Below the pieces are notes generated by a model. It was not told where the DNA came from and searched no databases. It saw only the letters and a list, made by a program, of their open reading frames with translations. A DNA stretch of 54,677 bases from a bacterium (GTDB lineage: Bacteria; Patescibacteriota; Minisyncoccia; UBA6257; GWB1-50-10), in the NCBI GenBank assembly GCA_021824045.1, contig JAKALR010000003.1, positions 1-54,677 on the forward strand, written 5' to 3'. The position numbers and the translations under genes are program-made. Shown in pieces: positions 34,926 through 49,787 of this stretch (the stretch's first letter is position 1; the number at the start of each line of letters is the position of its first letter).

Positions 34926-36002
34926 TTAGTTGCGATCAGATTTTAATTCGTCCAATCTGGCAGTAATGTACCGAAATGTCTCCTGGTAGGCGTGGCAGAA
35001 TGGTATATTGCCGTCATATCGCCCAGAAAACCAGAAAGCTTCCGAGCGGCAACCTCCTCTGCAAATCGGCAAGAATTCACAATTACCACAATTGGCTTTT
35101 ATGTGCTCGTCACGCATTTCCCGTAGTTTTTTAACCGAGCTATTGTTGAGTATTCTAAGAAGTGGCTCATGAAAAATATTGCCGAGCACAAATTCATTCA
35201 GGGCCAATGAGCCGCAGGGCACTACTTTCCCGCTTTGGGTGATAGTTATCATCCTTTTAAGACAGACTTCTGAGAATGAGCACAGTGTCGGTCTTGAACC
35301 GAGTAGTGACCGCAGGATGTTATCGAGTGGTTGAATTGAGGAAAAATTGTTCTCGGTATACATCCATAGATTAAACACATCTCTGTAGAGATCAAATATT
35401 TCTTCATCGCTCGGCAGGAGAGGTTTGGTCGCCAGTGGAACAGATTTTAATGGCAAGAGAGAAAAAGAATCGACGCCAATTTCCTTGAATAAATCGAAGA
35501 TTTCATGACTACGTCTGACATTGAGTTTGCTTATCACGCAGAGCGTTCTCAGCGGCAATCCATGCTGTTTGATAAGTTCGCATATGCCAAGCATTCTTTC
35601 CGGTTTGACACCCCGGTGGATCTCGCAAATTTCCAATGGGGCATCGAAACTCAAGCCAAGGTGGAAATCATTCTCTTTGAGGAAATCGAGCCAGCGATCG
35701 TCAAGAAGCGTGCCATTGGTTTGTATAGTGTTCCTAAACACAATGCCGCGTTTCTCTTTCTCCTTCTTCTCTGCGTCTAAAATCTTACTAAAGAATTCCA
35801 TGCCAACACTTAAGGGTTCGCCACCGAACCAACAAAAATCTACATTATCGAAGCCGAGAGAGCAATTCTGAATAAGTGTTCCCAGGTTTTTCGCATCAAA
35901 TCTACTTTTTTTATCCTGAGATGTGGCTGCGTGGCAATAGCTGCAATGTAAGTTACATGCAGAGGTTGTCATGGCTATGACTGTTGCCGATCTTTGTGGC
36001 AT
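34926..36002 (-). CDS. Radical SAM/SPASM peptide-modifying enzyme (rSAM-1)
   Basis: TTSACNLHCSYCHAA (CxxxCxxC); CWFGGEPL; SPASM-type cysteines C...VVPCGSLAL...CGNCEFLPICRGGCRSEAF...C. Confidence 0.88.
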   Translation of the reverse strand: MPQRSATVIAMTTSACNLHCSYCHAATSQDKKSRFDAKNLGTLIQNCSLGFDNVDFCWFGGEPLSVGMEFFSKILDAEKKEKEKRGIVFRNTIQTNGTLLDDRWLDFLKENDFHLGLSFDAPLEICEIHRGVKPERMLGICELIKQHGLPLRTLCVISKLNVRRSHEIFDLFKEIGVDSFSLLPLKSVPLATKPLLPSDEEIFDLYRDVFNLWMYTENNFSSIQPLDNILRSLLGSRPTLCSFSEVCLKRMITITQSGKVVPCGSLALNEFVLGNIFHEPLLRILNNSSVKKLREMRDEHIKANCGNCEFLPICRGGCRSEAFWFSGRYDGNIPFCHAYQETFRYITARLDELKSDRN

Positions 36003-36014
36003 TTCCTCACCCCC

Positions 36015-36215
36015 CTACGTATCAACGTAATATTCATGAGATGGAGACTCAATATAATACTGATGGAAATCAGTGTTGGCGCATCCGCTCTTTCCTTCAA
36101 TGACGCTCTTGATGATGCGTTTCACTGGGAGCGACACGTCGGATAATTTTTCCTCGGATATCTTACTTGCATCCAAGGTTACATTATCAGTAGCATCAAA
36201 CAACTCTTTCCTCAT
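36015..36215 (-). CDS. Candidate RiPP precursor peptide 1 (66 aa)
   Basis: MRKELFDATDNVTLDASKISEEKLSDVSLPVKRIIKSVIEGKSGCANTDFHQYYIESPSHEYYVDT; 12 nt upstream of rSAM-1; SD AGGAGAAG; C-terminal duplicated H[QE]YY[IV][ED][ST] motif. Confidence 0.6.
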   Translation of the reverse strand: MRKELFDATDNVTLDASKISEEKLSDVSLPVKRIIKSVIEGKSGCANTDFHQYYIESPSHEYYVDT

Positions 36216-36325
36216 GTCACACTTCTCCTTTTGGGATTTTTCTTCGTTACGGTTTTTTCAGAGAATCTGGACATTCCAAATTGTCCAAGGATCTGGTATT
36301 ATTATAACATAAACTAGACACTCGT

Positions 36326-37363
36326 GTGAAGATTATTTTAAAACTGAGCAAAACGGCCAATTTCTTCTTTTTCGTCAGTAATCTGTCGGAATGGCACTTT
36401 TCCTGCCGAAAAACATACAACGAGGCGTGGCTTAAAAAAACCGGGCCGCTCAAAGCCGAAGAAAAAAAAGTATTGTTATTATTCAAGAAAATAATGAAGC
36501 GGCGCGGATTTTCCCGAGACAAAGATTGGCAAAGTGAATATCTCGGCAAATATTTCTATCTGTTTCCAAAAGAGAGCGTTTGGAGGGAACTTAAAAAAAC
36601 TGCAAGCGAAAAGGAAATACAGCAGTTGAAAATGATCTTTGACGTCGTGCGTCCCCGGTTTGAAAAGATATGGAAATCGTATGATCCCGGGAAGAGAGTA
36701 TCTATCATCGAAAGATATATACACAGCAGGCTCTATACAAAACTTCTGGATGATTTGGGGATGGTTTTCGGAGGAAAAAAGAGTATGCTTGAGAAACTCA
36801 ACGTCGTCATTATCGTTTCCCCTCTCGGCAAAGAGACGACAGCGGCCGGCGGAGCAAACACGGGCCCAAGCAGCATAACCCTCGAACTTCCCAGCCTGAG
36901 ACCAAAGACTTGGCAACTGGACTTTTCCGCGATGATTCTCGCCCATGAAATAGCCCACAGTCTCTTTGAAAGACGCGGTGGTGCCGAACTTATTTCAAAA
37001 TCCATCACGAGATTGAGATTACCAAAAACAATCAAAAATCTTCCCGAAGGATTCAGCACCATGCAGTTGATCAACGAAGCCCTTACGGGAAGTTTCGTGC
37101 CACTCGGTTACTTTGGTCAAAAGTATACCCAATTCAGATTAGCCCCGCTTTTGTTAAACGATTTAAACAAGGGTCTCATTGGTTATCAAAAACTGTCATG
37201 CGGAGAGAAGATAAACTATTACAATGAATTGGAATATTATCTCATCCCCAGCTTGTATTCTCTCGCAATCATCTATGGGAGGAATAAAAAATCAATCGAC
37301 CGGAATTTCGTTCTTGAGGTAGCGAAAACTATAAAAACCTCTCTGCGCTACCGTTCACCGTAG
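36326..37363 (+). CDS. Putative zinc metalloprotease-like protein (HExxH), GTG start, divergent from rSAM-1 module
   Basis: DFSAMILAHEIAHSLFERRGG (HEIAH) with downstream INEALTGSF. Confidence 0.55.
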   Translation: MKIILKLSKTANFFFFVSNLSEWHFSCRKTYNEAWLKKTGPLKAEEKKVLLLFKKIMKRRGFSRDKDWQSEYLGKYFYLFPKESVWRELKKTASEKEIQQLKMIFDVVRPRFEKIWKSYDPGKRVSIIERYIHSRLYTKLLDDLGMVFGGKKSMLEKLNVVIIVSPLGKETTAAGGANTGPSSITLELPSLRPKTWQLDFSAMILAHEIAHSLFERRGGAELISKSITRLRLPKTIKNLPEGFSTMQLINEALTGSFVPLGYFGQKYTQFRLAPLLLNDLNKGLIGYQKLSCGEKINYYNELEYYLIPSLYSLAIIYGRNKKSIDRNFVLEVAKTIKTSLRYRSP

Positions 37364-37396
37364 CGCCTCACTTTCTCCCATATGGGAAAAAGTGAA
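37332..37396. repeat. 65-bp exact dispersed repeat, copy 1 (two palindromes)
   Basis: taaaaacctctctgcgctaccgttcaccgtagcgcctcactttctcccatatgggaaaaagtgaa; identical to 39810-39874. Confidence 0.92.
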
Positions 37397-37455
37397 ATCC
37401 ACTGCACGGTGAAACCATTTGCCGAAACGGCGGTCGTTGTCACACCGGTCGGCCT
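37397..37455 (-). pseudogene. Relic fragment of Fn3 surface-protein gene
   Basis: Reverse frame RPTGVTTTAVSANGFTVQW matches WPTGVTTTAVSANSFTVQW in CDS 47607-49787. Confidence 0.85.
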
Positions 37456-37517
37456 GTTTGTTAAAGTTTTCGCATGCTCCCAATAAGCGGCAACGGAGCG
37501 TGATACACTTATTACAT

Positions 37518-38192
37518 ATGGAGTTGATTCTTATCCGACACGGCGAAACCAAAGAGGGCAAAAAGGGGATTTTATTGGGACAACTTCCGGGTACATTGAC
37601 GGCCAAGGGGCGCAGGTTTGCCGACGAAGTCGGTCGCGTGATCGCCGGATTTTCATATCGCTCCCCGCTTATTATCGCAAGTGATTTAGAACGATCAAAA
37701 GAAACCGCGCGCGCCATTGCGCGGATTACGCACGCGCCTTTAAAATGTGATAGATTGCTCCGGGAACGGAACGGAGGCATCGACGAGGGGAAAAAAGAAA
37801 GTCAAATAAATTGGAAAGAATATGAAAGGAGGCCACTCGCCTATCGCCGGCACGAAGGGGGAGAAAGTTTTGCTGATGTTAAGAAGCGAGCGAGCGCATT
37901 TCTGGAAAAAATACAAAAGGAAAAGCATTCACCGATCATTATTGTTTCCCATCAAGCGCTTATTTCCACGCTGCTCTCAGAACTTTTTGGTTGGAGCTAT
38001 CCAAAAGCCCTTAAGTTTGATCTTAAAAACAAGTTGGTCATTGTGAATACAAAAAAACGGGAGTGGACGAAATCACACTCCCGTTTAAGGATTGTTCTAG
38101 TTGATATGAGAGTATCATTGCTCGGTTATTATCGTGTGCAGCTTATGAGCAATAATATCACGAATCATGGCACATCGATCGACAGGAAATGA
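37518..38192 (+). CDS. Histidine phosphatase family protein
   Basis: MELILIRHGETKEGKKGILLGQLPGTLTAKG (RHGE); IIVSHQALISTLLSELFG. Confidence 0.85.
   Translation: MELILIRHGETKEGKKGILLGQLPGTLTAKGRRFADEVGRVIAGFSYRSPLIIASDLERSKETARAIARITHAPLKCDRLLRERNGGIDEGKKESQINWKEYERRPLAYRRHEGGESFADVKKRASAFLEKIQKEKHSPIIIVSHQALISTLLSELFGWSYPKALKFDLKNKLVIVNTKKREWTKSHSRLRIVLVDMRVSLLGYYRVQLMSNNITNHGTSIDRK
38058..38084. terminator. Bidirectional hairpin between phosphatase and rSAM-2 genes
   Basis: ACGGGAGTGgacgaaatcaCACTCCCGT, A-run left and T-run right. Confidence 0.65.
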
Positions 38193-39368
38193 GCTAAACC
38201 AGTCACCGTTCTTGGAATAAACACATCCGCCCCGACAATGCCATTTTGCAAAACATGTCGCACAGCCGGGCATGTTCAAAACGTGGAACTGACGAACTGA
38301 TTCAACTGATTCATCGCGAATCGTGACGCCCCGATCGGTCACCATGCCGATTTCGAACGATTTGGCAAATGCGCTTTTGTCATTGAAAGAAATGGTGCAC
38401 GCAGAGATGGTACCGTCCGGTGACACCGAATAGTTGGGAATTGGCACAGAACATGGAAATGGCGACACCGAATGAATATCAGTACCCGTCAGATTGATAT
38501 CCATACCTTTTGCGCGGTAATCTTTCCACAATTCGAAGTATGCTTTTCCAAGCGCGGCATAATCAACAGTAGATTTGCCTCCAAGGGCTCGACCGAGATT
38601 TTCTTTAAGGCTGAGAAAGATATGTTTCACACCATATGTATACATCTCATCGACAATCTCCCGAAGATGTCCACTGTTCGACTCAGAAACTACCACGAGT
38701 ACGCTCATTGGAACGTTGTTCTCGAGAAGAAAACCAATGTTTCCCCACACGCGTCTTGCAATCTGCGCGTTGCCACCATATCTGAGGTTTTTGTCTCCGA
38801 AACCATCCCAGGAAACTTGCACTTCCTTCATGTCACCAATAATTCTGGTAAATTTCTTGCGACTAAAAAGGCCGTTCGTGAGAAGACGAGGTATTAACTC
38901 AGTTTTTGCTCCCAATCTACTTCTAGCATATGCGATCGTCTTTTCTATGAATGGTGTGCGTAACGTTGGTTCTCCGCCTGAATAGACTATTTCTAGAAAC
39001 TTGGCGCCGGTTTCTTCGGCGAATTTACAAAAACCGTCGATCGCGTTCTTTGCAATTACCTCCGGCATGTCTGTCACAGGACCGCTATCGGCCCGCACAC
39101 TGCAATAACGACATTCTAAATTACAACCAGTCGTTATGTTGAGACGAAGACGAATCTTTTCTTTGTCGAACACAAACCCCTTATTGCGGATAAAGTCGGG
39201 AACGTTTTTCATGTCCGATGCTTCCTTTAGCCATTCTTCATCGACATCTTCTAGTGTAATTATACCGTCATAGACGGTAAAAAATCTGGTCAGAGGAGCA
39301 TAAAAGAGCGTCTGACCATCGAGGTGGATTGCGTACACCTCTTCTCTTAGTAACCTTTCGTCCAACAT
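38115..39368 (-). CDS. Radical SAM/SPASM peptide-modifying enzyme (rSAM-2)
   Basis: LNITTGCNLECRYCSVRAD; YSGGEPTLR; SPASM CSVPIPNYSVSPDGTISACTISF...CATCFAKWHCRGGCVYS; N-terminal peptide-binding-like segment HLDGQTLFYAPLTRFFTVYDG. Confidence 0.88.
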   Translation of the reverse strand: MLDERLLREEVYAIHLDGQTLFYAPLTRFFTVYDGIITLEDVDEEWLKEASDMKNVPDFIRNKGFVFDKEKIRLRLNITTGCNLECRYCSVRADSGPVTDMPEVIAKNAIDGFCKFAEETGAKFLEIVYSGGEPTLRTPFIEKTIAYARSRLGAKTELIPRLLTNGLFSRKKFTRIIGDMKEVQVSWDGFGDKNLRYGGNAQIARRVWGNIGFLLENNVPMSVLVVVSESNSGHLREIVDEMYTYGVKHIFLSLKENLGRALGGKSTVDYAALGKAYFELWKDYRAKGMDINLTGTDIHSVSPFPCSVPIPNYSVSPDGTISACTISFNDKSAFAKSFEIGMVTDRGVTIRDESVESVRQFHVLNMPGCATCFAKWHCRGGCVYSKNGDWFSSFPVDRCAMIRDIIAHKLHTIITEQ

Positions 39369-39415
39369 TGTAGTCTCCTTTCTACTCCCTGATCTTATTT
39401 TTCAGATAAAATGCA

Positions 39416-39444
39416 GGGGGTTAGAATCAGAAATTCCAACCCCC
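39416..39444 (-). promoter_or_regulatory. Intercistronic hairpin between precursor 2 and rSAM-2
   Basis: GGGGGTTgGAATttctgATTCtAACCCCC on minus strand. Confidence 0.7.
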
Positions 39445-39450
39445 AACAGG

Positions 39451-39567
39451 CTACTTCGACAGGATGCGTGTATTTGAACAGCAACCGAATGTCGAAGCGC
39501 GATTTCCGTCGGAAATCTTGCCCGAGACAACTTTTTTGGGCTTTTTTACAACAGCAATCTTTTTCAT
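39451..39567 (-). CDS. Candidate RiPP precursor peptide 2 (38 aa, Cys-Cys)
   Basis: MKKIAVVKKPKKVVSGKISDGNRASTFGCCSNTRILSK; good SD (GGGAGGAAG); own promoter; directly upstream of rSAM-2; below ORF-track size cutoff. Confidence 0.68.
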   Translation of the reverse strand: MKKIAVVKKPKKVVSGKISDGNRASTFGCCSNTRILSK

Positions 39568-39698
39568 TGCCTCTTCCTCCCTTCTTACCTAATATTCCCG
39601 CACTCCAATTGGCTGAAATCCACCCTGGATTTCATTTAACTTTATTGAACCAAAAGCGCGTGAAAATATGTAGGGTTTTTTGTTTAAAGACTGATATT

Positions 39699-39726
39699 AA
39701 TATAATATCATTGATCATCTTGTCAA
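39699..39726 (-). promoter_or_regulatory. Sigma70-type promoter for precursor 2 / rSAM-2
   Basis: TTGACA-16 bp-TATATT on minus strand. Confidence 0.6.
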
Positions 39727-39809
39727 GGGCCTCGGATTGAACCGGGGATCTAGCGGCGATCAGTATTTTGCTGATATCACTTGGGACATATGAGAGAAGT
39801 GGGTATCAT

Positions 39810-39874
39810 TAAAAACCTCTCTGCGCTACCGTTCACCGTAGCGCCTCACTTTCTCCCATATGGGAAAAAGTGAA
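39810..39874. repeat. 65-bp exact dispersed repeat, copy 2
   Basis: Identical to 37332-37396. Confidence 0.92.
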
Positions 39875-39875
39875 G

Positions 39876-39983
39876 CAACTGGTTCAAAACATACGATCGC
39901 ACAAAGTGTACCAATAGCAAGGATAGGCGAAGAAGCAGTGCTACAAAATATGCGATCGTTGAATTTGTAGCACAGGAGGGCGG
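39876..39983. repeat. Dispersed repeat A with 36-nt palindrome (39938-39973)
   Basis: caactggttcaaaacatacgatcgcacaaagtgtaccaatagcaagg...GTGCTACAAAatatgcgatcgttgaaTTTGTAGCAC; related copies at 42850-42974 and 45715-45753. Confidence 0.88.
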
Positions 39984-39996
39984 CCGGAAAATAAAG

Positions 39997-40030
39997 AACA
40001 CCGTCAGCACATTGAGCGCTGGCGGTGTTT
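39997..40030 (-). terminator. Terminator of T9SS-type protein gene 1
   Basis: AACACCGCCAGCgctcaatgtGCTGACGGTGTT then TCTTTATTTT; duplicated at 45764-45797. Confidence 0.82.
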
Positions 40031-40064
40031 ACATACACTCTTCAGACATTGAAGAAGGTCCTTT

Positions 40065-41633
40065 CTACTTAAGGAGATTCATCTTCTTCGTCTGGACGAA
40101 GTTGCCGGCCTGGAGACGGTAGAAATAGACACCTGAAGCTAAGCTTGATCCGTTGAATTGGACCGAATAGCTTCCGGGGCTCTTTTCTCCGTCAACCAAC
40201 GTCGCAACTTTTTGTCCAAGAACGTTGAAAATGGTCAGGTTAACGATAGTTCTTTTTTGGACCGAGAATTGAATGGTCGTTGTCGGGTTGAAGGGATTCG
40301 GATAGTTCTGGAGCAATGTGAAAGTTGCCGGGCCGTGTGAAGGCTCATCGACGCCGGTCACGATCTTGAAGGACCATGACGCGGAGTCCGATGCTCCTGA
40401 AGCATCGCTCACGACAACGGAAACCGTTGTCGCCGACGAGATCTCCCTGAAGGTATATATCAGGGAATCGCAACCGGCAGAAACAACGTTGCCGTTCACT
40501 TTCCAGGTATAGGAAAGTGAATCGCCGTTCGGGTCCGTTGCCGCAACCGAGAAGGTCATCGGCACGTTGACTCCAACAGAGTCCATCGAGGATGGCATTT
40601 GGGATGCGATCTGAGGAGGCGAAACGACACTGAGCGTCAGGATATAAATGGAACCATTGATGTTTGCCAAGAGATGCGTGCTGTCGAGCTGCATCATGGC
40701 GCCTATCTGGTAACCTTTGAATCCGAAAACGCTCCATGTCGCACCGTTGTCGGTCGAGCGGAACAAGCCGTCGCTCACGATGTTGTTGCCATCACCCACG
40801 AACAATCCGAGATTGCTCGAAGCGAGAATGCTGGGATAACTAACGCCTACCGGAGTAGTTGGCACGGGAACTTTTTGCCAGGTTTTGCCGTCGTCGGTGG
40901 ATTTATAGACTCCTGCATCTTTCGTCGCCGCGAAGACTGTGCCATCTGATGCTTCTTCGAAATTCTCAACGCAATCCAGATCAGCACCATCTCCCGTCGG
41001 CAAACCGCTCGCTATGTTCCATGTGAAACCGTTATCGGTTGATCGGTAAACACCGTACCACTGAGGACTTATTCCCCCAACCCCCATTAGAACCGTGCCC
41101 TTGCTTGTGGTAAACAAACTCGCTGCAGTATTCCAATGGAAAGGAGAATTATCGGTAATAGAACTCCAGGTTTGGCCGTCATCAATGGATCGATAGAGAG
41201 AATCTTGTCCACCGCTGATGATTGATCTATTGGGTGCTACCGTGAAATAACGTCCAGCTTTCGTTGCGATGGTTTCCCATGCGCTTCCTCCATCTATCGA
41301 CCTTCCAAACACACTCCCCAATCCTGTCGCAAGTAGTGTTCCCGAGTCGGTAACTCCCAAAGCAAGAGTGATACCGCCGCTGAACTTAAGGTTCAGAGTC
41401 TGCCACGTTTTCCCGCTATCCGAGGAACGAATGAGATTGTTGGTGCTCGTCTGTCCCACGATATACTCACCGCTTCTCACGAAACGATAAATATAGGAAA
41501 AGTTACTGACATTCATGGTGTCAACCGGGAATACGCGGATCTGATCTGTGATCATCAGCCCCCTGGTCCCTTGTCCGAGAACAATCGCTGCAATGCTCAA
41601 AAGGAGCATTGCGATCATCATCAAACGTTTCAC
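40065..41633 (-). CDS. Secreted BNR/sortilin-like beta-propeller protein with Ig-like domain and C-terminal T9SS type A sorting domain
   Basis: Signal peptide; repeated YRSTDNGFTWN / FRSTDNGATWS motifs; C-term LLQNYPNPFNPTTTIQFSVQ...VLGQKVATLVDGEKSPGSYSVQFNGSSLASGVYFYRLQAGNFVQTKKMNLLK. Confidence 0.88.
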   Translation of the reverse strand: MKRLMMIAMLLLSIAAIVLGQGTRGLMITDQIRVFPVDTMNVSNFSYIYRFVRSGEYIVGQTSTNNLIRSSDSGKTWQTLNLKFSGGITLALGVTDSGTLLATGLGSVFGRSIDGGSAWETIATKAGRYFTVAPNRSIISGGQDSLYRSIDDGQTWSSITDNSPFHWNTAASLFTTSKGTVLMGVGGISPQWYGVYRSTDNGFTWNIASGLPTGDGADLDCVENFEEASDGTVFAATKDAGVYKSTDDGKTWQKVPVPTTPVGVSYPSILASSNLGLFVGDGNNIVSDGLFRSTDNGATWSVFGFKGYQIGAMMQLDSTHLLANINGSIYILTLSVVSPPQIASQMPSSMDSVGVNVPMTFSVAATDPNGDSLSYTWKVNGNVVSAGCDSLIYTFREISSATTVSVVVSDASGASDSASWSFKIVTGVDEPSHGPATFTLLQNYPNPFNPTTTIQFSVQKRTIVNLTIFNVLGQKVATLVDGEKSPGSYSVQFNGSSLASGVYFYRLQAGNFVQTKKMNLLK

Positions 41634-41782
41634 TTTCTTAACGCTCCTTTCGAGTTTTTATCGGTGAAACAACCGTTATGAACTTTATTTACAATCTAAG
41701 GGAAGATTCCTTAGTCTGGTTATATTATACCACAAACAACGAAAAAAGGCAAAAATATTGATTTCCCTTTATTAATGCGGAT

Positions 41783-42378
41783 TTATTGGAGCAATCCCCT
41801 AATGAAGATATTGTACGTCGTCGAGGCATTTAGACCACTAATTCCGAGGGTTTGGGTCCCTGTTGCACTCAAAGCGCTCTGGAGATTCGAGGGGATGGGA
41901 TAGGATTGATAGCAACTGGGATTATTGGCCGGATTCGGCGTACTCGACGGACAAATATTAAAGTTTGGATCCTGTGCACTAAAAAGGTAGATCCCCATCT
42001 GCTTATACGACTGCGGGTTGGTCCATTGCACGGTGAAACCGTTGGAAGTGACGCTCGCGGAAGGGATCGTGACATTCGTCGGCCACTGGTTGCCGCCGGT
42101 CACGTTTGCCGTCGTGACGCAGTAGCTCGAACCGCACCAGGACATTTGTCCCAGGACGTTCACCGGCGTTGTGGGGGTTTGTCCCCCGAAGTTGCCAGTC
42201 GAGGGGTTGTAGGAGATGTCGCTCAAATCGACGAGTCCGTTCCAAGAGCTATTGCTTCCGTCGCCGAATGAAAGGAATTTAGCCTCGCCGGAAAGTTTCC
42301 CCGTCGACGAATCTATCTTGGGGGCTTGGCCCGACGGCACATCGGAAGGATTGAACGACAGCCAGCCATAGCCGCCCT
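41783..42378 (-). pseudogene. 5'-truncated C-terminal part of Fn3 surface-protein gene
   Basis: GGYGWLSFNPSDVPSGQAPK...SYNPSTGNFGGQTPTTPVNVLGQMSWCGSSYCVTTANVTGGNQWPT matches internal part of 47607-49787; no signal peptide; truncated at the hicA stop. Confidence 0.75.
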
Positions 42379-42568
42379 ATTTCTTCAATTTTTGTATACC
42401 CAAATCTTGGCAGATTTTCTCTGCTAAGAAATTATTAATCTCCTGATGGCGCGGTACCGTCGAAACCCTTCTGGTTTCGGGATTAAAAAAGACGCTGTGT
42501 CTAGCGCCCTCGCGTACAAAAACGCAACCTTGTTTCATGATGTGGTTTATAAGATCGCGTCTCTTCAT
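42377..42568 (-). CDS. hicA: HicA-family toxin
   Basis: MKRRDLINHIMKQGCVFVREGARHSVFFNPETRRVSTVPRHQEINNFLAEKICQDLGI. Confidence 0.88.
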   Translation of the reverse strand: MKRRDLINHIMKQGCVFVREGARHSVFFNPETRRVSTVPRHQEINNFLAEKICQDLGIQKLKK

Positions 42569-42780
42569 AAAGACACGAAAATCGGTTCTCTTAAGATTTT
42601 GGAGTCGGAGCTCTTAACCAAAAACTTGCCCGTTTCCAGAACAAGCACCAGAGCTTCCTTGAGGTTTTCTTTGGCTTCTTTTAGCGTGCGGCCCTGAGTA
42701 TTAACGCCGGGAATTTCTTCTATCCATGCGGAGTACCATTTTCCAGTTTTTTTATAAACGGCTGTAAATTGTCGGCTCAT
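42565..42780 (-). CDS. hicB: HicB-family antitoxin
   Basis: FTAVYKKTGKWYSAWIEEIPGVNTQGRTLKEAKENLKEALVLVLE; overlaps hicA by 4 nt. Confidence 0.85.
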   Translation of the reverse strand: MSRQFTAVYKKTGKWYSAWIEEIPGVNTQGRTLKEAKENLKEALVLVLETGKFLVKSSDSKILREPIFVSL

Positions 42781-42849
42781 AATACTTCAATAGTATCATA
42801 GATTTATTTAAAAACAAGCGTATATTCGAACACTTGCCGGATTTTGGAA

Positions 42850-42974
42850 CAACTGGTTCAAAACATACGATCGCACAAAGTGTACCAATAGCAAGGGTGG
42901 GCAAAGAGGCAGCGCTACAAAAGAAGCAGTGCTACAAAATATGCGATCGTTGAATTTGTAGCACAGGAGGGCGG
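42850..42974. repeat. Dispersed repeat copy C with 36-nt palindrome (42929-42964)
   Basis: caactggttcaaaacatacgatcgcacaaagtgtaccaatagcaagg...gtgctacaaaatatgcgatcgttgaatttgtagcacaggagggcgg. Confidence 0.88.
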
Positions 42975-43185
42975 TTCAAAAGAAAGAAGGCTGACATATG
43001 CAGAGCATAGTCATCCTTCGAAAATCCGATTCCTAAAGAGGAATCCGAACCTTCTTTTTTGCAATCAATGAAGTATTGGCACAAAAAAAGACGATCGCAC
43101 CAAGCGTACCAATGAGACACTCGGAAAACAAAGAACCATAGGTTGATATTATTATAATACAAGTCGGGAACCAAAAACGCCTCCA

Positions 43186-43905
43186 TTAAATTGATTTTGC
43201 GCAAATAAAGTATATCCTGTCGGAGACTTCTGACGCGCGGTCACCGTTCCCATCAATGACGTCAACCCCTTTAAACATTTTCTTAAGGGATCTCTCAATC
43301 TCTATGATAGGGAATGAACATTCTTTTATATTCTCGGAACTTACCACCTCCCCACCGTTTATGCCGCCCTTCATAACCTTAATGTCCCAGTTATAAATCT
43401 CCATTTCTTTTATCACACTTATCACCACTCTCCCATCGTTGAGTATTCTTATTATTGGATTCGATTGAGTTAATTTTTCTAACTTCTGCCGCGTATTAAT
43501 ATCAAAGATAAAAATACCCCCACCATTTAAATGGCGATAAGCACGAGAAAATGCATGCTCCCAATTTTCATAATTCAGTAGGTGGTTCATGGTATCGAAT
43601 ATACACAAAACGACATCATATCTCCCGGAGAGAGAAAAATTTGATATATCCTGATGAGATAAGTGAGCATTGGGGACTTTCTGTCGCGCAATTGAAAGCA
43701 TTTCCTCCGATGTGTCAATGCCAACAACAGAGTATCCGAGATCAGAGAAATATTCTAAAAACATTCCTGTTCCGCACCCTAATTCTAAGATGGTTTTTGC
43801 TTGTGGATTGTATTTCTTAATTAATTCTTCGATAAACTTTTCTCCATTTTTCCTATCCCCCATCGCGGAATCATAAAATTTAGCAAAAGCCCCGTAGTTA
43901 GTCAT
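43186..43905 (-). CDS. Class I SAM-dependent methyltransferase
   Basis: TILELGCGTGMFLEYFSDLGYSVVGIDTSEEMLSIARQKVPNA; YDVVLCIFDTMNHLL. Confidence 0.9.
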   Translation of the reverse strand: MTNYGAFAKFYDSAMGDRKNGEKFIEELIKKYNPQAKTILELGCGTGMFLEYFSDLGYSVVGIDTSEEMLSIARQKVPNAHLSHQDISNFSLSGRYDVVLCIFDTMNHLLNYENWEHAFSRAYRHLNGGGIFIFDINTRQKLEKLTQSNPIIRILNDGRVVISVIKEMEIYNWDIKVMKGGINGGEVVSSENIKECSFPIIEIERSLKKMFKGVDVIDGNGDRASEVSDRIYFICAKSI

Positions 43906-43946
43906 ATCCCTATTTTACACTCTCGCAAAAGAATTGAGAAACAAAA

Positions 43947-43971
43947 GAGCTCATCGATATAAGATGAGCTC
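43947..43971 (-). terminator. Hairpin downstream of rSAM-3
   Basis: GAGCTCATCgatataaGATGAGCTC. Confidence 0.6.
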
Positions 43972-43988
43972 AGTGCTACCAAAAATAT

Positions 43989-45368
43989 TCAGAGAGCAAA
44001 GCCATACTCCCTGAGAAGAGGGGCAACCTTTCTCTTAAAGAAAGAGACCGCCAAGCAGGCATAGTCGTCTTTCGCGTTGTAAAAATCACCGTGGAGAAAA
44101 TAAGCATTTGCCCGACATCCCGTGCCACAGAGTTCTCGCAGTTTGCATCCTCTGCAACCAGCAACATCGCCGATCTTCACCGTTTTTACCTCGCGCATTT
44201 TGTCGGAGTACCAAATATTCCAAATTGATGATTGTTTAATATTACCAATCGGCAATTCAGAACAGTAGGCACAGGAAACGACATCACCGTTCGGTTTCAC
44301 GCAACATTCGGACCTACGACCCTCATAATCACAAACGAAATCGTTATCCGTAAGTTTCTGGAAACCTTGTTCAAAGAGCTGTTCCCTGAACAAATATTCA
44401 ATTTGCAAGTGAAACGGCATGCCGTTCGCCAAATGTCGCCGCAAAAGGACTAAACAGCGCTCGGCAATAATACCCCATTCTACGTTGAATGTTGCGCGGT
44501 AATTCTTGAACTCCGGCGTCATCTTGGGAAAACCAAGTCTCCAACTGCTCACACTCATCCTTTTCACCAGATCATACATTGCATCAAGATGATCAATATT
44601 CTCCATGTTCACCACGGTGTTCACGACTACACTGATCCCTTTTGAGGTTAATAGCATAATGTTCCGCACTATGCGCTCGAGCACTTTCCTGGAATCCTTA
44701 CTGGAGAAACCCCGAAAGGAAAAGTCCACGCCGGGGATCGAATCAAGGCTGACAAAAAGCGAGAACTGACTGCGCAACTCCTGGACCGCCTGGATGAACC
44801 TGCCGTTTATCAACAGACCGTTCGAGAATATCGCAGAAATTCTCATCTTTCTCTCCTCGATGGCTGATAGCACATCGGCAAGCCGGGACATCATCAACGG
44901 CTCGCCGCCACTGATCCCGATGTTATTTACCTGCATGCCCTGCAAATCATCAAGAAGGCGAATAATCTCGTCGAAGCTCAACTCTTCGCCGCTCTTGACA
45001 TATTCAGCTTGATAGCAGTGAACGCATTTCATATCGCACTTACCGCTCGCTTCTAGATGGACTGCCTCAAGTCTTCTGTCCGGCACTTGATTTCTCCCGA
45101 GAACTCTTGGCGCGGATGCATTAGTAAATTCTACAGCTGAGATATTTTTCAGTTGATCAATGAATTGTAATACATCAACCCTCGAGGTTTTGGCGTATTG
45201 TTTGAGTATCTGTTCCACAGTGTTCGTGCCGTCAAGTGACTGGAGGAATTCAACCTGGTCGGCAGTCAACTCATAGGTAGTACCATTCCGCAAACAATAA
45301 AGAGTGCTCATTGATGTGGAATGCTTCAGTGTGAAATCGCCCGCTAACGAAACATATTGATTGGGCAT
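43989..45368 (-). CDS. Radical SAM/SPASM peptide-modifying enzyme with PqqD/RRE-like N-terminus (rSAM-3)
   Basis: N-term LYCLRNGTTYELTADQVEFLQSLDGTNTVEQILKQY; EASGKCDMKCVHCYQAEY; GISGGEPLM; SPASM CCVKPNGDVVSCAYCSELPIGNI...CRGCKLRELCGTGCRANAYF; start trimmed to MPNQYV after SD GAGGAGG. Confidence 0.9.
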   Translation of the reverse strand: MPNQYVSLAGDFTLKHSTSMSTLYCLRNGTTYELTADQVEFLQSLDGTNTVEQILKQYAKTSRVDVLQFIDQLKNISAVEFTNASAPRVLGRNQVPDRRLEAVHLEASGKCDMKCVHCYQAEYVKSGEELSFDEIIRLLDDLQGMQVNNIGISGGEPLMMSRLADVLSAIEERKMRISAIFSNGLLINGRFIQAVQELRSQFSLFVSLDSIPGVDFSFRGFSSKDSRKVLERIVRNIMLLTSKGISVVVNTVVNMENIDHLDAMYDLVKRMSVSSWRLGFPKMTPEFKNYRATFNVEWGIIAERCLVLLRRHLANGMPFHLQIEYLFREQLFEQGFQKLTDNDFVCDYEGRRSECCVKPNGDVVSCAYCSELPIGNIKQSSIWNIWYSDKMREVKTVKIGDVAGCRGCKLRELCGTGCRANAYFLHGDFYNAKDDYACLAVSFFKRKVAPLLREYGFAL

Positions 45369-45420
45369 ACGAGCCTCCTCTTTTTTAAAAGTACTTAACG
45401 TACAAAAACTATAGAATAAT

Positions 45421-45450
45421 GGGTGGAATGCTTTTGAGAACACTCCACCC
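45421..45450 (-). promoter_or_regulatory. Intercistronic hairpin between precursor 3 and rSAM-3
   Basis: GGGTGGAGTGttctcaaaagCATTCCACCC on minus strand. Confidence 0.65.
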
Positions 45451-45469
45451 CCGCTGGAGCCGAGTGAAA

Positions 45470-45589
45470 CTACGAACCCGGCGCACTGGCGTTCAGGGCC
45501 TGCGTCAGTCTTACCTGAAGCACCCTCTTTTTGAGTAAAGAGTTTTTCAGGACCTTCTGACCGGCCCCTTTTACCAGGGGCTTTTTCAT
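45470..45589 (-). CDS. Candidate RiPP precursor peptide 3 (39 aa)
   Basis: MKKPLVKGAGQKVLKNSLLKKRVLQVRLTQALNASAPGS; directly upstream of rSAM-3; -10 TATAAT at 45665-45670 (minus); below ORF-track cutoff. Confidence 0.6.
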   Translation of the reverse strand: MKKPLVKGAGQKVLKNSLLKKRVLQVRLTQALNASAPGS

Positions 45590-45714
45590 AACAGCCTCTC
45601 TACAGTTTTTGTTAAGCAAGTAACTTCACAGAAAAGCCTGCAAATACCAATTACCTGCCCTATGATTATAATAACACAAAAATAAACCATTCGTAATAAA
45701 AACGCCGCCTCGCT

Positions 45715-45836
45715 ATATGCGATCGTTGAATTTGTAGCACAGGAGGGCGGCCGAAAAATAAAGAACACCGTCAGCACATTGAGCGCTGGCGGTGTTTACA
45801 TACACTCTTCCATTGAAGAAGATCTCCTATTTAAGT
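45715..45836. repeat. Dispersed repeat copy B, shared with 3' region of T9SS-type gene 1
   Basis: atatgcgatcgttgaatttgtagcacaggagggcggccg...aagaacaccgtcagcacattgagcgctggcggtgtttacatacactcttc matches 39948-40052. Confidence 0.88.
45764..45797 (-). terminator. Terminator of T9SS-type protein gene 2
   Basis: Same hairpin sequence as 39997-40030. Confidence 0.8.
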
Positions 45837-47473
45837 AATTCCATCTTCTTGATCTGGGAGAAGGTTCCAGCTTGGAGACGGTAGAAATAGACGCCGCTGG
45901 AGAGATTCGATCCATTGAATTGGACCGAGTAGCTTCCGGGGTTCTTTTCTCCGTTTACCAAAACTTGAACTTCTTGCCCCAAAATATTGAAGATAGACAA
46001 GTGAACGAAAATGGGTTTTGAGACCGAGAATTCGATCGTGGTGGTCGGGTTGAAAGGATTCGGGTAGTTCTGGAGCAATGTGAAAGTCGCCGGGCCGTGA
46101 GAGGGCTCATCGACGCCGGTCACGATCTTGAAGGACCATGACGCGGAGTCTGATGCTCCCGATGCATCACTCACGACGACGGAAACCGTTGTCGCCGACG
46201 AGAGTTCCCTGAAGGTATATATCAGGGAATCGCAACCGGCAGAAACAACGTTGCCATTCACTTTCCAGGTATAGGAAAGTGAATCACCGTTGGGGCTGCT
46301 TGCCGCAACCGAGAAGGTCATCGGCACGTTGACTCCAACGGAGTCCATTGAAGATGGCATCTGGGATGCTATTTCCGGCGGGTTGGATGGGGTATACGAA
46401 ACGATGTATATACCGGATCCTGTACCCGCAAGGATTCTACCGCCACCGTAAGGATAGAGACAGTATCCATTGGTATTCGCGAGACCAACAAACTGCCACG
46501 TTTTACCGGAGTCTGCTGAATAATAGAGGCCTGCATCTCCGCTTATTCCCGCGCCAATATCATTGTGGTATATCGCCCACACTTTTCCATTGGCCGCGAG
46601 AACCGCAGAGGCATACTTCGGCATCGGAGTCGACCCATTGACCTGAATCCAGCTTTGACCGTCGTCATTGGAGCGGAAGATTCCCTCTCCATCAGTCGCG
46701 GCGTAGACAACGCCAGTCGAAGAATCACACGACAACCCCCAGATGTTGTATCCGTTGGCTGCCATGTTTCCATTCGAGTCCAGTGTGCCATCACCGATGT
46801 TGCCGATCTGACCAATGAGACCACTGTCGGCCTCCATCCAAGTGCCGCTATCACCATTGTCAGTGGAACGGTAAATTCCCGAAGTCCATCCTTGAGGATC
46901 ACCATTGCCAGTACCAGCGATAATTGTTCCTCTCGGCGTGAAAGTAATAGCACGAAAACCACCAATTGGAGGATTAAGTACATTGAGCCAGTCCGAACCG
47001 TTATCGATTGAACGATAAACAGATCCCCCAAAACCAGTTGCCACGAACATATTACTATCCTTTATGCTTATCGCTAAAGGACCGGTAGAGTTGAGGCCCT
47101 GCACAGAATTCCAAGAATTGCCGTTATCAGTGGAATTGAAAAGGTCACCTCCTGTTCCCAAGAACAATGTTCCATTTGAATTTGCCTCAATGGCATATGC
47201 GGATGCAAATGGCATATTGGCGCCCTTGAGACCATTCATTAAATGAACCCAGGTGCTTCCTCCATCAGAAGAGCGATAGAGGTAATCAGTTCCGGTACCA
47301 GCGAAAATATTTCCACTTCTATCAACAAAGAGGGAGGCGACGGCAGCGTTGATTTTTCCACCATCGAGGATATTTTTCATTTGGAATTTTGTGGTAACGT
47401 TCGTCTGACTCCAAACCGCTATTGGCCAGATGCTCGCGAGGAGCACCAAAGCAAAAAGAATGATTCGCTTCAC
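45827..47473 (-). CDS. Secreted BNR/sortilin-like beta-propeller protein with T9SS type A sorting domain, paralog of 40065-41633
   Basis: Signal peptide MKRIILFALVLLASIWPIAVWSQ; YRSSDGGSTWVHL, YRSTDNGDSGTW; NYPNPFNPTTTIEFSVSKPIFVHLSIFNILGQEVQVLVNGEKNPGSYSVQFNGSNLSSGVYFYRLQAGTFSQIKKMELLK. Confidence 0.88.
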   Translation of the reverse strand: MKRIILFALVLLASIWPIAVWSQTNVTTKFQMKNILDGGKINAAVASLFVDRSGNIFAGTGTDYLYRSSDGGSTWVHLMNGLKGANMPFASAYAIEANSNGTLFLGTGGDLFNSTDNGNSWNSVQGLNSTGPLAISIKDSNMFVATGFGGSVYRSIDNGSDWLNVLNPPIGGFRAITFTPRGTIIAGTGNGDPQGWTSGIYRSTDNGDSGTWMEADSGLIGQIGNIGDGTLDSNGNMAANGYNIWGLSCDSSTGVVYAATDGEGIFRSNDDGQSWIQVNGSTPMPKYASAVLAANGKVWAIYHNDIGAGISGDAGLYYSADSGKTWQFVGLANTNGYCLYPYGGGRILAGTGSGIYIVSYTPSNPPEIASQMPSSMDSVGVNVPMTFSVAASSPNGDSLSYTWKVNGNVVSAGCDSLIYTFRELSSATTVSVVVSDASGASDSASWSFKIVTGVDEPSHGPATFTLLQNYPNPFNPTTTIEFSVSKPIFVHLSIFNILGQEVQVLVNGEKNPGSYSVQFNGSNLSSGVYFYRLQAGTFSQIKKMELLK

Positions 47474-47606
47474 TTTCTTAACGCTCCTTTCTGAGCTTTC
47501 TGTTAAGCAATCAGTTATTGAGAAATGACAAGCAAGGATTTATTTAACTTCATCCTTGGCTGTTAAGTATTATACCACAAATCGCTGAAAAATGGAAGGG
47601 GTAGAT

Positions 47607-49787
47607 TTACTTCAAAAATGCTCGTATTTTCACGTAGTATGTTGTATTGGGACTCAAATTATTTATTGTTTGTGAATATGTAGTATTTGATGAAGTTGCA
47701 TCCAATTTCGGTATTATAAACCATCCCCTCACTGGATTACTCGACGTGGCATACAACACCTGCGCACCACCGGCGTAGCTCTGTGGGTTGTACCATTGCA
47801 CGGTGAAACTATTTGCCGAAACGGCGGTCGTTGTTACGCCGGTTGGCCACTGGTTGCCGCCAGTCACGTTTGCCGTCGTGACGCAGTAGCTCGATCCGCA
47901 CCAAGACATTTGTCCCAGGACGTTCACCGGCGTTGTGGGAGTCTTGCTCCCGAAGTTGCCGGTCGAGGGGTTGTAGGAGATGCCGCTCAAATCAACCCAG
48001 CCGTCCCAGGAACTGTTGCCGCCGTTGAAAGCGGGGAACCGGGCGTAGCCGGAGAGTTGATTTTTCGCCGGATTCAACTTCGGAGCGCAATTCGGAGCTC
48101 CCGTTGGGCAGCCGTTGAAGTCACTGGTGTTGAACGACAGCCAGCCGTAGCCATTCCCGCTCCACGCGTACCCGGAAAGGTTATTGTTCGAATCTATGTA
48201 CACGCCATACTGATTCGAGTCGGTCGGCGAGGTATTCGAACTGAATTTCACCCAGCCGATGCCCTGGTAGGTTGCTCCGCCCGTTTTCGCGTTGAAATAT
48301 TGTCCAAGACCCCAGACAGCCGAGATCCCATAGCCATCAACTTCGTAATAGTACGGCATGATGTTGCTCAGATTACTGTCGGTGAAGGTATGCGTGCTGC
48401 CGGGATTCAAATTAAAGGAATCTATTTGAGTTTTCCCGCTGCATCCGAAAGCGGAACTGTATCCGGAGCACCGATAGATGGTTCCCTTCCATACATCATT
48501 CGGGTTGACCACGGAGATCGTAACGCTGTTCGCCGAAGCGCTCCCGGTGACCGAGAAGGGCACCGACGGAGTTCCATAGAAACTCGACGATCCCATCTTT
48601 TGGAAATAGCCGTTGGTTATCGTCCCATTGACATTGGCCCAGGCATACCCCGAAAGCGATTCTTTCAGATTCAAGTTGATGGAACCCGATGTCACGGGAC
48701 CGGTGATATTCCCGCTCCCGTCCTTGAAGGCAACGCTGTAAACATGAGTTGCGCTGAGCGGCGCCGTAGTGTCGTAGTACGACGTCGCCGTAGAACGCCC
48801 GAGAGACACGGTGTATATCTGTGTTCCGTCCCGGTATACAACGTAGGTCCCCGACGAAGCATTTTTGACCGTCGGCCAGGAAAGATACACCGTCCCCTGA
48901 TTCGCGGTCGTCGAGGCATAGACCACATTAGCGGTCATGGAGGATCCGCTGAAACTCGGTAGAGGCGGCACCACTTTCGTGAAATTCGCCGTGAGAGCGC
49001 CCGATGCGGTACTCCCCGTATCATTGATAATCTTGCACGTTGCGTTGGTCACCGGGTAGCAAGAATCCAGAGCGATGCCCGTACCGCTCCAGCTGGAAAA
49101 CGTGTAGCCGGATGCGGGAGTAGCAGTGAGAGTGATATTTTGCGGAGGCGTAAATTTCAAATTGGTGCTGCACTGCGTCGATCCCTCGCCGCAGTCTATG
49201 GCAGTTACCCCGGCGCTACTGTTTACCGTCGTGATCATGCCGGCATTATTATTGGCGCTTCCATTAGCGGCTAACTGAACGGTCAAATTATTCGATGGCG
49301 GCGGCGACGGCGGCTGATAAGCTTGGGTGAAATCAGCCGATACGGCCGCGTTATAGACGTCATCCACGATCCAGGTCAACGAGCATGCGCTCGTATTCGG
49401 CGTTCCGCTGCACGCGCCGCCCCAGCTTGAAAATTGGTATCCACTTGCGGGCGTTGCCGTCAAAGTAACCGTGATATTGCCGCTGCCGACTCCCCCGCTG
49501 CATCTCGTGCCGGTCGTGCCGCAGTTTATGATTACCGTTCCGCTCTGGGTTTTACCAACCACCGAACCAGCGACCGTCCCGCTGCCGCCGTTCAATGTTA
49601 TCGTAACCGACAACTGCCGCGTCGGTTGCGGAGGCGGCGGAGGCGTCCCGCCTCCCCCCCCCGTTCCTCCGCCATCCGGGGGCAATGGCGCTACCGCGGA
49701 CACGCCATGCGACATCATAACGGACCCTACGCCGATGGCCGCGATCGCGATGAAAAAGATGAAAAATTTTTTATTCGACAATTTCAT
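47607..49787 (-). CDS. Large secreted surface protein with bacterial repeat (InlB-B-like) and Fn3-like domains
   Basis: Signal peptide; repeated LTATPASGYQFSSWGGACSGTPNTSACSLT / LTATPASGYTFSSWSGTG; INNLSPNTTYYVKIRAFLK C-terminus. Confidence 0.72.
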   Translation of the reverse strand: MKLSNKKFFIFFIAIAAIGVGSVMMSHGVSAVAPLPPDGGGTGGGGGTPPPPPQPTRQLSVTITLNGGSGTVAGSVVGKTQSGTVIINCGTTGTRCSGGVGSGNITVTLTATPASGYQFSSWGGACSGTPNTSACSLTWIVDDVYNAAVSADFTQAYQPPSPPPSNNLTVQLAANGSANNNAGMITTVNSSAGVTAIDCGEGSTQCSTNLKFTPPQNITLTATPASGYTFSSWSGTGIALDSCYPVTNATCKIINDTGSTASGALTANFTKVVPPLPSFSGSSMTANVVYASTTANQGTVYLSWPTVKNASSGTYVVYRDGTQIYTVSLGRSTATSYYDTTAPLSATHVYSVAFKDGSGNITGPVTSGSINLNLKESLSGYAWANVNGTITNGYFQKMGSSSFYGTPSVPFSVTGSASANSVTISVVNPNDVWKGTIYRCSGYSSAFGCSGKTQIDSFNLNPGSTHTFTDSNLSNIMPYYYEVDGYGISAVWGLGQYFNAKTGGATYQGIGWVKFSSNTSPTDSNQYGVYIDSNNNLSGYAWSGNGYGWLSFNTSDFNGCPTGAPNCAPKLNPAKNQLSGYARFPAFNGGNSSWDGWVDLSGISYNPSTGNFGSKTPTTPVNVLGQMSWCGSSYCVTTANVTGGNQWPTGVTTTAVSANSFTVQWYNPQSYAGGAQVLYATSSNPVRGWFIIPKLDATSSNTTYSQTINNLSPNTTYYVKIRAFLK

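Follow-up and report, generated by a model that had tools for sequence, protein, structure and literature searches.

The question raised by an 11-kb region of a patescibacterial contig is whether the short open reading frames (ORFs) that precede its three radical S-adenosylmethionine (rSAM)/SPASM genes encode precursors of ribosomally synthesized and post-translationally modified peptides (RiPPs), as an original prediction from the DNA had proposed. The window, meaning the whole stretch analysed (54,677 nt), is one entire contig (C29) of a 611,871-bp genome that is 97.7% complete and has Patescibacteria as its relatives. Most biosynthetic capacity is believed to be missing from members of this group, many of which are attached to other cells, and their effects on those cells are poorly known. 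A genome-wide search returned rSAM1, rSAM2 and rSAM3 as the only Radical_SAM genes, so that a 612-kb genome spends all of its radical SAM genes on modules of this type. Each lies on the minus strand, starts with ATG behind a Shine-Dalgarno site, and encodes CxxxCxxC together with the complete seven-Cys SPASM pattern. The predicted coordinates of the three genes were confirmed, as were those of the Shine-Dalgarno-bearing ORFs 5' of them (66, 38 and 39 aa). We consider it highly likely that they form three distinct rSAM/SPASM RiPP systems.

The evidence that carries this reading is the conservation of the peptide-enzyme pairs. For each of the three short ORFs, one or more other genomes carry a homolog directly 5' of the matching enzyme homolog, the informative relatives being G394, G597, G139, G214 and the contig L126. 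Alignments of the window peptides with these homologs gave z values of 7.3 to 14.3 for the three pairs, and 0 of 4000 shuffles reached the score in any of them. The upstream ORFs are therefore more than chance, since each aligns with the peptide that precedes the homologous enzyme elsewhere. Within the conserved blocks of peptides 2 and 3, synonymous sites have reached saturation or come close to it and the residues are largely kept, which indicates purifying selection on these blocks as judged from the alignments. Both the linkage and the selection had been anticipated. All three modules thereby show what identifies a RiPP system, a short encoded precursor with a modifying enzyme, kept as a pair. 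One cassette duplicated three times was considered and rejected, because the peptides and enzymes of each module have separate relatives in different genomes; the expectation of distinct systems holds in this respect. No NCBIfam or Pfam model matched the window peptides, and among ten relatives' peptides NCBIfam gave no match and Pfam one weak match below its cut-off. Initial searches of the phylum and the family had brought up rSAM homologs with only about 21–32% identity over long stretches. The features of the region are as follows.

34926-36002, minus strand: rSAM1, radical SAM/SPASM enzyme, anSME/DynA/GrrM-like, under every curated cut-off.
36015-36215, minus strand: precursor peptide 1, 66 aa, gap to rSAM1 12 nt.
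36301-36330, minus strand: promoter-like site 5' of peptide 1 (consensus scan, 11/12 matches).
36326-37363, plus strand: HExxH protein, putative metallopeptidase, divergent to module 1.
38115-39368, minus strand: rSAM2, radical SAM/SPASM enzyme with N-terminal extension, weakly PapB-like.
39416-39444, minus strand: GC-rich hairpin, 13 pairs, then T-rich DNA, attenuator-like, between peptide 2 and rSAM2.
39451-39567, minus strand: precursor peptide 2, 38 aa, ...SGKISDGNRASTFGCCSNTRILSK, gap to rSAM2 82 nt.
39699-39726, minus strand: promoter-like site TTGACA-16-TATATT 5' of peptide 2 (consensus scan, 11/12).
43186-43905, minus strand: class I SAM methyltransferase, assigned to module 3 by synteny with homologous loci.
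43989-45368, minus strand: rSAM3, radical SAM/SPASM enzyme with predicted RRE-like N-terminal domain (residues 1 to about 85).
45421-45450, minus strand: hairpin, 12 pairs, then T-rich DNA, attenuator-like, between peptide 3 and rSAM3.
45470-45589, minus strand: precursor peptide 3, 39 aa, ...NSLLKKRVLQVRLTQALNASAPGS, gap to rSAM3 101 nt.

Module 3 has the widest set of relatives. Homologs of rSAM3 were found in G139 (L108), G214 (L264) and on L126, a contig of 2.4 kb from a nanoarchaeal bin whose label may be wrong; the two that were aligned end to end share 42% and 46% identity with it. The heptapeptide RLTQALN is invariant in the peptides of the four genomes, always 5' of the rSAM3 homolog (L108, L126, L264). 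A methyltransferase gene follows the rSAM3 homolog in G139 (L108:9212-9889, 35% identity over 140 aa) and in G214 (L264:2947-3657), and wherever the sequence extends far enough to show it (the window, G139 and G214), the order is peptide, rSAM, methyltransferase; the L126 contig is too short. The methyltransferase after rSAM3 thus belongs to module 3. The closest NCBIfam models of rSAM3 are NirJ2 (105.6 bits against a cut-off of 500) and ScmE. Its 95 N-terminal residues were modelled with a pLDDT (per-residue model confidence) of 82, and the top PDB matches of this model are RiPP recognition elements (RREs), several of them leader-bound: TbiB1, a lasso B1, PbtF, PqqD, and the rSAM enzymes TigE and CteB. 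The domain is thus predicted to have an RRE-like fold; the resemblance is at the level of the fold only, because the best E-value was 1.0e-3 and the TM-scores were about 0.64-0.70 (0.64-0.68 for TbiB1). The match to Pfam PqqD was sub-threshold. The order of a predicted RRE-like N-terminal domain followed by the rSAM and SPASM domains is that of RRE-containing SPASM RiPP enzymes and of PqqE/PqqD, and the locus holds a methyltransferase besides this enzyme. Module 3 differs from those systems in the residues of its conserved block (see below) and in that neither precursor nor enzyme belongs to a curated family.

An invariant RLTQALN next to a PqqD-like domain would be expected if the conserved residues became the product, i.e. 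if at least one module were a cofactor or redox-carrier system like PQQ (pyrroloquinoline quinone) or mycofactocin, in which a peptide is modified and then cut down to a small molecule, instead of a source of secreted signals or antimicrobials; the lack of a visible exporter in the window also fits this. No partner oxidoreductase was seen adjoining module 3, however, the sporadic distribution (3/311 genomes of the phylum) better fits an accessory trait, and the cores of modules 1 and 2 are of other types. We regard a cofactor system as improbable, while it fares better than the other alternatives considered.

The closest relative of module 2 was found in G597, from another family of the same order. 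Its enzyme and rSAM2 share 52% identity across residues 2-416. The 38-aa ORF in front of this enzyme, MKRARRRKCAPRRIKSGKINDKGRASTFGSCKNTRVVV (L231:5825-5941), has a strong Shine-Dalgarno site and aligns with window peptide 2, MKKIAVVKKPKKVVSGKISDGNRASTFGCCSNTRILSK, at z 14.3. Both peptides share SGKI-D--RASTFG-C-NTR, in which one Cys is invariant, as is one Asn two residues later. The pN/pS ratio is 0.41 in the 22-codon conserved block and near 1 across the whole peptide, which argues that selection acts on this block. The best NCBIfam model of rSAM2 is PapB and its best PDB match is 5wgg (CteB), and ranthipeptide maturases (PapB, CteB/SCIFF) are thus the nearest known enzymes by both model and structure, with which the invariant Cys-x-Asn is compatible. 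Membership of these families is not supported, the scores being 80.5 bits against 340 for PapB and 62.6 against 425 for SCIFF; unlike ranthipeptides, module 2 has no repeated Cys-acid motif, a single invariant Cys and a different precursor. There is a precedent for a Cys-Asn thioether (PMC11002830). By this analogy module 2 might form a thioether, possibly between Cys and Asn, an assignment that we put forward as doubtful. The same 8-kb contig of G597 also carries an ATP-grasp-like gene and a 62-aa peptide of graspetide-like appearance (L231:7094-8309).

A hairpin comparable to that at 39416-39444 stands at the matching place in G597, and L108 and L126 have hairpins at the same place as 45421-45450. 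Such terminator-like hairpins between ORF and enzyme, in modules 2 and 3 and at the same place in their homologs, are what would be seen if the short ORFs were regulatory leader peptides that attenuate rSAM transcription, the enzymes acting on other substrates. Against this, conservation extends beyond the hairpins to the peptide sequences, the gap behind peptide 1 (12 nt) is too small for a hairpin and its core has a doubled aromatic motif, and many relatives have the peptide downstream of the enzyme, where attenuating the enzyme is impossible. The modelled RRE-like domain of rSAM3 points the same way, given that RREs bind precursor leaders. Attenuation is consequently an explanation to which we give little credence.

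For module 1, the relative is G394, from another genus of the same family, with an enzyme 48% identical to rSAM1 that is preceded by a 63-aa peptide ORF (L116:6326-6517). The two peptides align at z 9.9 (0 of 4000 shuffles). Their leaders have VS(L/T)PV in common (VSLPV in the window), and both cores hold two copies of H-x-(H/Y)-(Y/W)-x-(D/E)-(S/T/E), namely HQYYIES and HEYYVDT in peptide 1, and HDHWSDE and HDHYRDS in G394. Two motif copies were found in 0 of 20000 shuffles of peptide 1, a figure that is descriptive, the motif having been defined from these peptides beforehand. The repeats contain Y-x-E and Y-x-D in the window, and W-x-D and Y-x-D in G394. Triceptides are formed by related SPASM enzymes through crosslinks from residue i to i+2, including Tyr-x-Asp by YxdB (PMC11002830). 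Their core motif, aromatic-x-(N/D/R/S/A), is matched by YVD in repeat 2 of peptide 1 and by WSD and YRD in the homolog; in YIE of repeat 1, the Glu lies outside the residues listed in PMC11002830.

The enzyme rSAM1 has no N-terminal domain. Its closest NCBIfam models are anSME, DynA and GrrM (the best, TIGR03942, with 203.7 bits against a cut-off of 349), and its nearest solved structures are anSME. Like the triceptide systems (XncB, OscB, MscB, YxdB, HaaB and YhhB; PMC11002830), module 1 combines a short precursor with a SPASM rSAM enzyme, its Y-x-E/D repeats (W-x-D and Y-x-D in the homolog) have the i to i+2 spacing of YxdB and OscB, and rSAM1 registers on the GrrM/OscB, AmcB and YhhB models. 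The cut-offs of these cyclophane-maturase models were all failed (GrrM/OscB 125 vs 310, AmcB 120 vs 425, YhhB 81 vs 445), and module 1 is for that reason not filed as a member of the triceptides; it also differs from them in its precursor, which is of no known family, its HExxH partner and its host in the Patescibacteria. Because the Y-x-E, Y-x-D and W-x-D repeats fit i to i+2 crosslinks, the mechanism may be triceptide-like, and we lean slightly towards cyclophane chemistry of this kind by analogy. The class proposed originally, ranthipeptide, sactipeptide or cyclophane, was too broad as a common label: module 1 points to triceptide-like and, weakly, module 2 to Cys thioether chemistry, and module 3 to neither.

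It is scarcely credible that the peptides are chance ORFs and that the enzymes are of other kinds, rSAM1 maturing sulfatases anaerobically and rSAM3 acting on tetrapyrroles as a NirJ/AhbC-type enzyme, as the top models (TIGR03942 and NirJ2) and the anSME structures closest to rSAM1 would allow, given the low scores against both models, the predicted RRE-like domain of rSAM3, the conservation of the peptides, and a genome with no PF00884 match in a search that was positive in 10 of 14 control genomes; rSAM1 was rejected as a sulfatase maturase because the genome has no sulfatase. A match to non-peptide rSAM families, named in the original prediction as a finding that would speak against it, was not borne out, the enzymes scoring best or near-best on peptide-maturase families or bearing an RRE-like domain.

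The HExxH protein divergent to module 1 is one of an uncharacterised family, of which the fetched loci contain 23 members, all (23/23) with HExxH. In an alignment of 15 members the sole invariant columns are H207, E208 and H211, and a Glu about 50 residues past the motif is also conserved by eye. Neither a Pfam family nor a PDB relative was found for the protein, and a single-sequence structure model (pLDDT 42) was too poor and was not used for a fold search. When the order was searched with this family alone, it was present in 42/245 genomes; an rSAM gene lies within 1.5 kb in 16 of the 30 loci returned (one being the window itself), and a further 4 carry a SPASM-like piece. Elsewhere, transglutaminase-like proteins or a GVxHSxDP family stand in its place. 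The family is a conserved partner of rSAM modules and most probably acts as a leader peptidase. The earlier suggestion that the HExxH protein and the methyltransferase are maturation partners is supported in a refined form, in which the methyltransferase is part of module 3 and HExxH proteins accompany enzymes of the module 1 type as well as some others.

What was observed is that peptides and enzymes are paired, that the pairs are conserved, and which domains and partner genes the modules have; from this we infer the chemical steps, their order and the biological role. In each module, a short precursor gene would be transcribed ahead of its enzyme, and the hairpins of modules 2 and 3 probably act as leaky terminators, so that more precursor than enzyme is made. 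The rSAM/SPASM enzyme would bind the conserved leader, in the case of rSAM3 via its RRE-like domain, form a 5'-deoxyadenosyl radical and modify side chains in the C-terminal core. In module 1 each repeat would receive one aromatic-x-acid crosslink (at Y-x-E and at Y-x-D), which makes the products triceptide-like cyclophanes, and the HExxH protein would then probably cut off the leader. The modification in module 2 would be centred on the conserved STFG-x-C-x-N block, possibly as a Cys-Asn thioether, and in module 3 a radical modification near RLTQALN would be followed by methylation. Short precursors and small enzymes make it possible to test the products directly in E. coli without growing the organism.

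Several points weigh against three RiPP systems. Outside the window, a single close homologous pair was found for module 1 and likewise for module 2. All enzyme scores are far under the curated family cut-offs, and the chemistry is therefore extrapolated. The conserved block of module 3 is without a Cys or an aromatic residue, and a terminator-like hairpin also stands between rSAM3 and its methyltransferase. Neither a dedicated exporter nor an immunity gene was found. Finally, small ORFs are enriched beside rSAM genes of related Patescibacteria (Shine-Dalgarno site, at most 150 nt, same strand; 31/59 rSAM genes vs 35/353 other genes; Fisher p = 5e-13), which speaks for RiPP systems, but this enrichment comes from loci that were picked around rSAM genes, with control genes from the same loci.

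In these relatives, many of the rSAM-adjacent peptides carry Y-x-D, W-x-N or Cys-rich cores, and the cores beside related rSAM genes include WDKGHWANRK, DWENxxDW, YGDxYxD and CSELNCSTYCSDH. Where the peptide is 5' of the enzyme with a gap of at least 60 nt, a strong hairpin usually lies between them, as judged against shuffles that kept base composition only; in many others the peptide sits downstream. Cys-rich short peptides directly 3' of rSAM/SPASM genes (L092:4384-4563, L088:8706-8828, L096:7122-7280 and L117:9783-9932) are apparently further precursor families.

RiPP clusters have been reported from the small genomes of Patescibacteria, also known as the candidate phyla radiation (CPR), namely linear azol(in)e peptides of the YcaO type (PMC7298704) and graspetides made by ATP-grasp enzymes (PMC8939145); the present modules share the type of host and use radical SAM/SPASM enzymes instead. 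No report of rSAM/SPASM RiPPs in CPR was found in the literature searched, which left subscription journals mostly outside its coverage. All three peptide-enzyme systems are very probably real and previously undescribed; what is new is the precursor families, the HExxH partner family and the host group for rSAM/SPASM RiPPs. Peptide-rSAM pairs and a peptidase-like partner recur across the order. A wider proposal can be made tentatively, at somewhat less than even expectation: that rSAM/SPASM RiPPs are numerous and largely undescribed in Patescibacteria, with many precursor families matured by new enzyme families and trimmed by a new family of HExxH metallopeptidases, that at least module 3 performs a radical modification beyond known RiPP chemistry, and that the products serve contact or competition with hosts and rivals, the precursor families being those with Y-x-D, W-x-N, WDKGHWANRK, CSELNCSTYCSDH, RASTFGxCxNTR and RLTQALN.

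As for the region itself, the predicted RiPP island stands as three RiPP modules and not as a single gene cluster, because a tandem duplication and unrelated genes are interspersed with them. The duplication has a period of ~5.76 kb (window 39800-42400 vs 45560-48200), with blocks of 666 bp at 87% identity and 180 bp at 90% plus shorter ones, and takes in a surface-protein 3' end and a gene with a type IX secretion system (T9SS) tail. A HicA/HicB-like toxin-antitoxin pair (42377-42780) lies between the duplicated units, and a histidine phosphatase gene also sits between modules. GC content over the region is mostly 37-54% (about 42-46% in the modules), the flanks being higher at about 50-60%. 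Of the minus-strand promoter-like sites in the 11.3-kb region, the two best lie 5' of peptides 1 and 2; the total of such sites is not above that of shuffles. Scans of viral contigs with each rSAM as query gave no match.

Two BNR-repeat proteins (40065-41633 and 45827-47473) end in T9SS type-A C-terminal sorting tails, which were found in 27/43 genomes of the same family; a search for SprA of the T9SS machinery was uninformative on the presence of the system, its controls having given no match. In G420, G389 and G419 (L086, L087, L088 and L089), T9SS-tail genes or fragments lie a few kb from rSAM genes, which suggests that the two share insertion hot spots in the relatives. At another locus, L106 (G351:C7:86500-106000), about ten radical SAM genes lie within 18 kb together with small proteins of His/Ser repeats (HSSHSSHGS).

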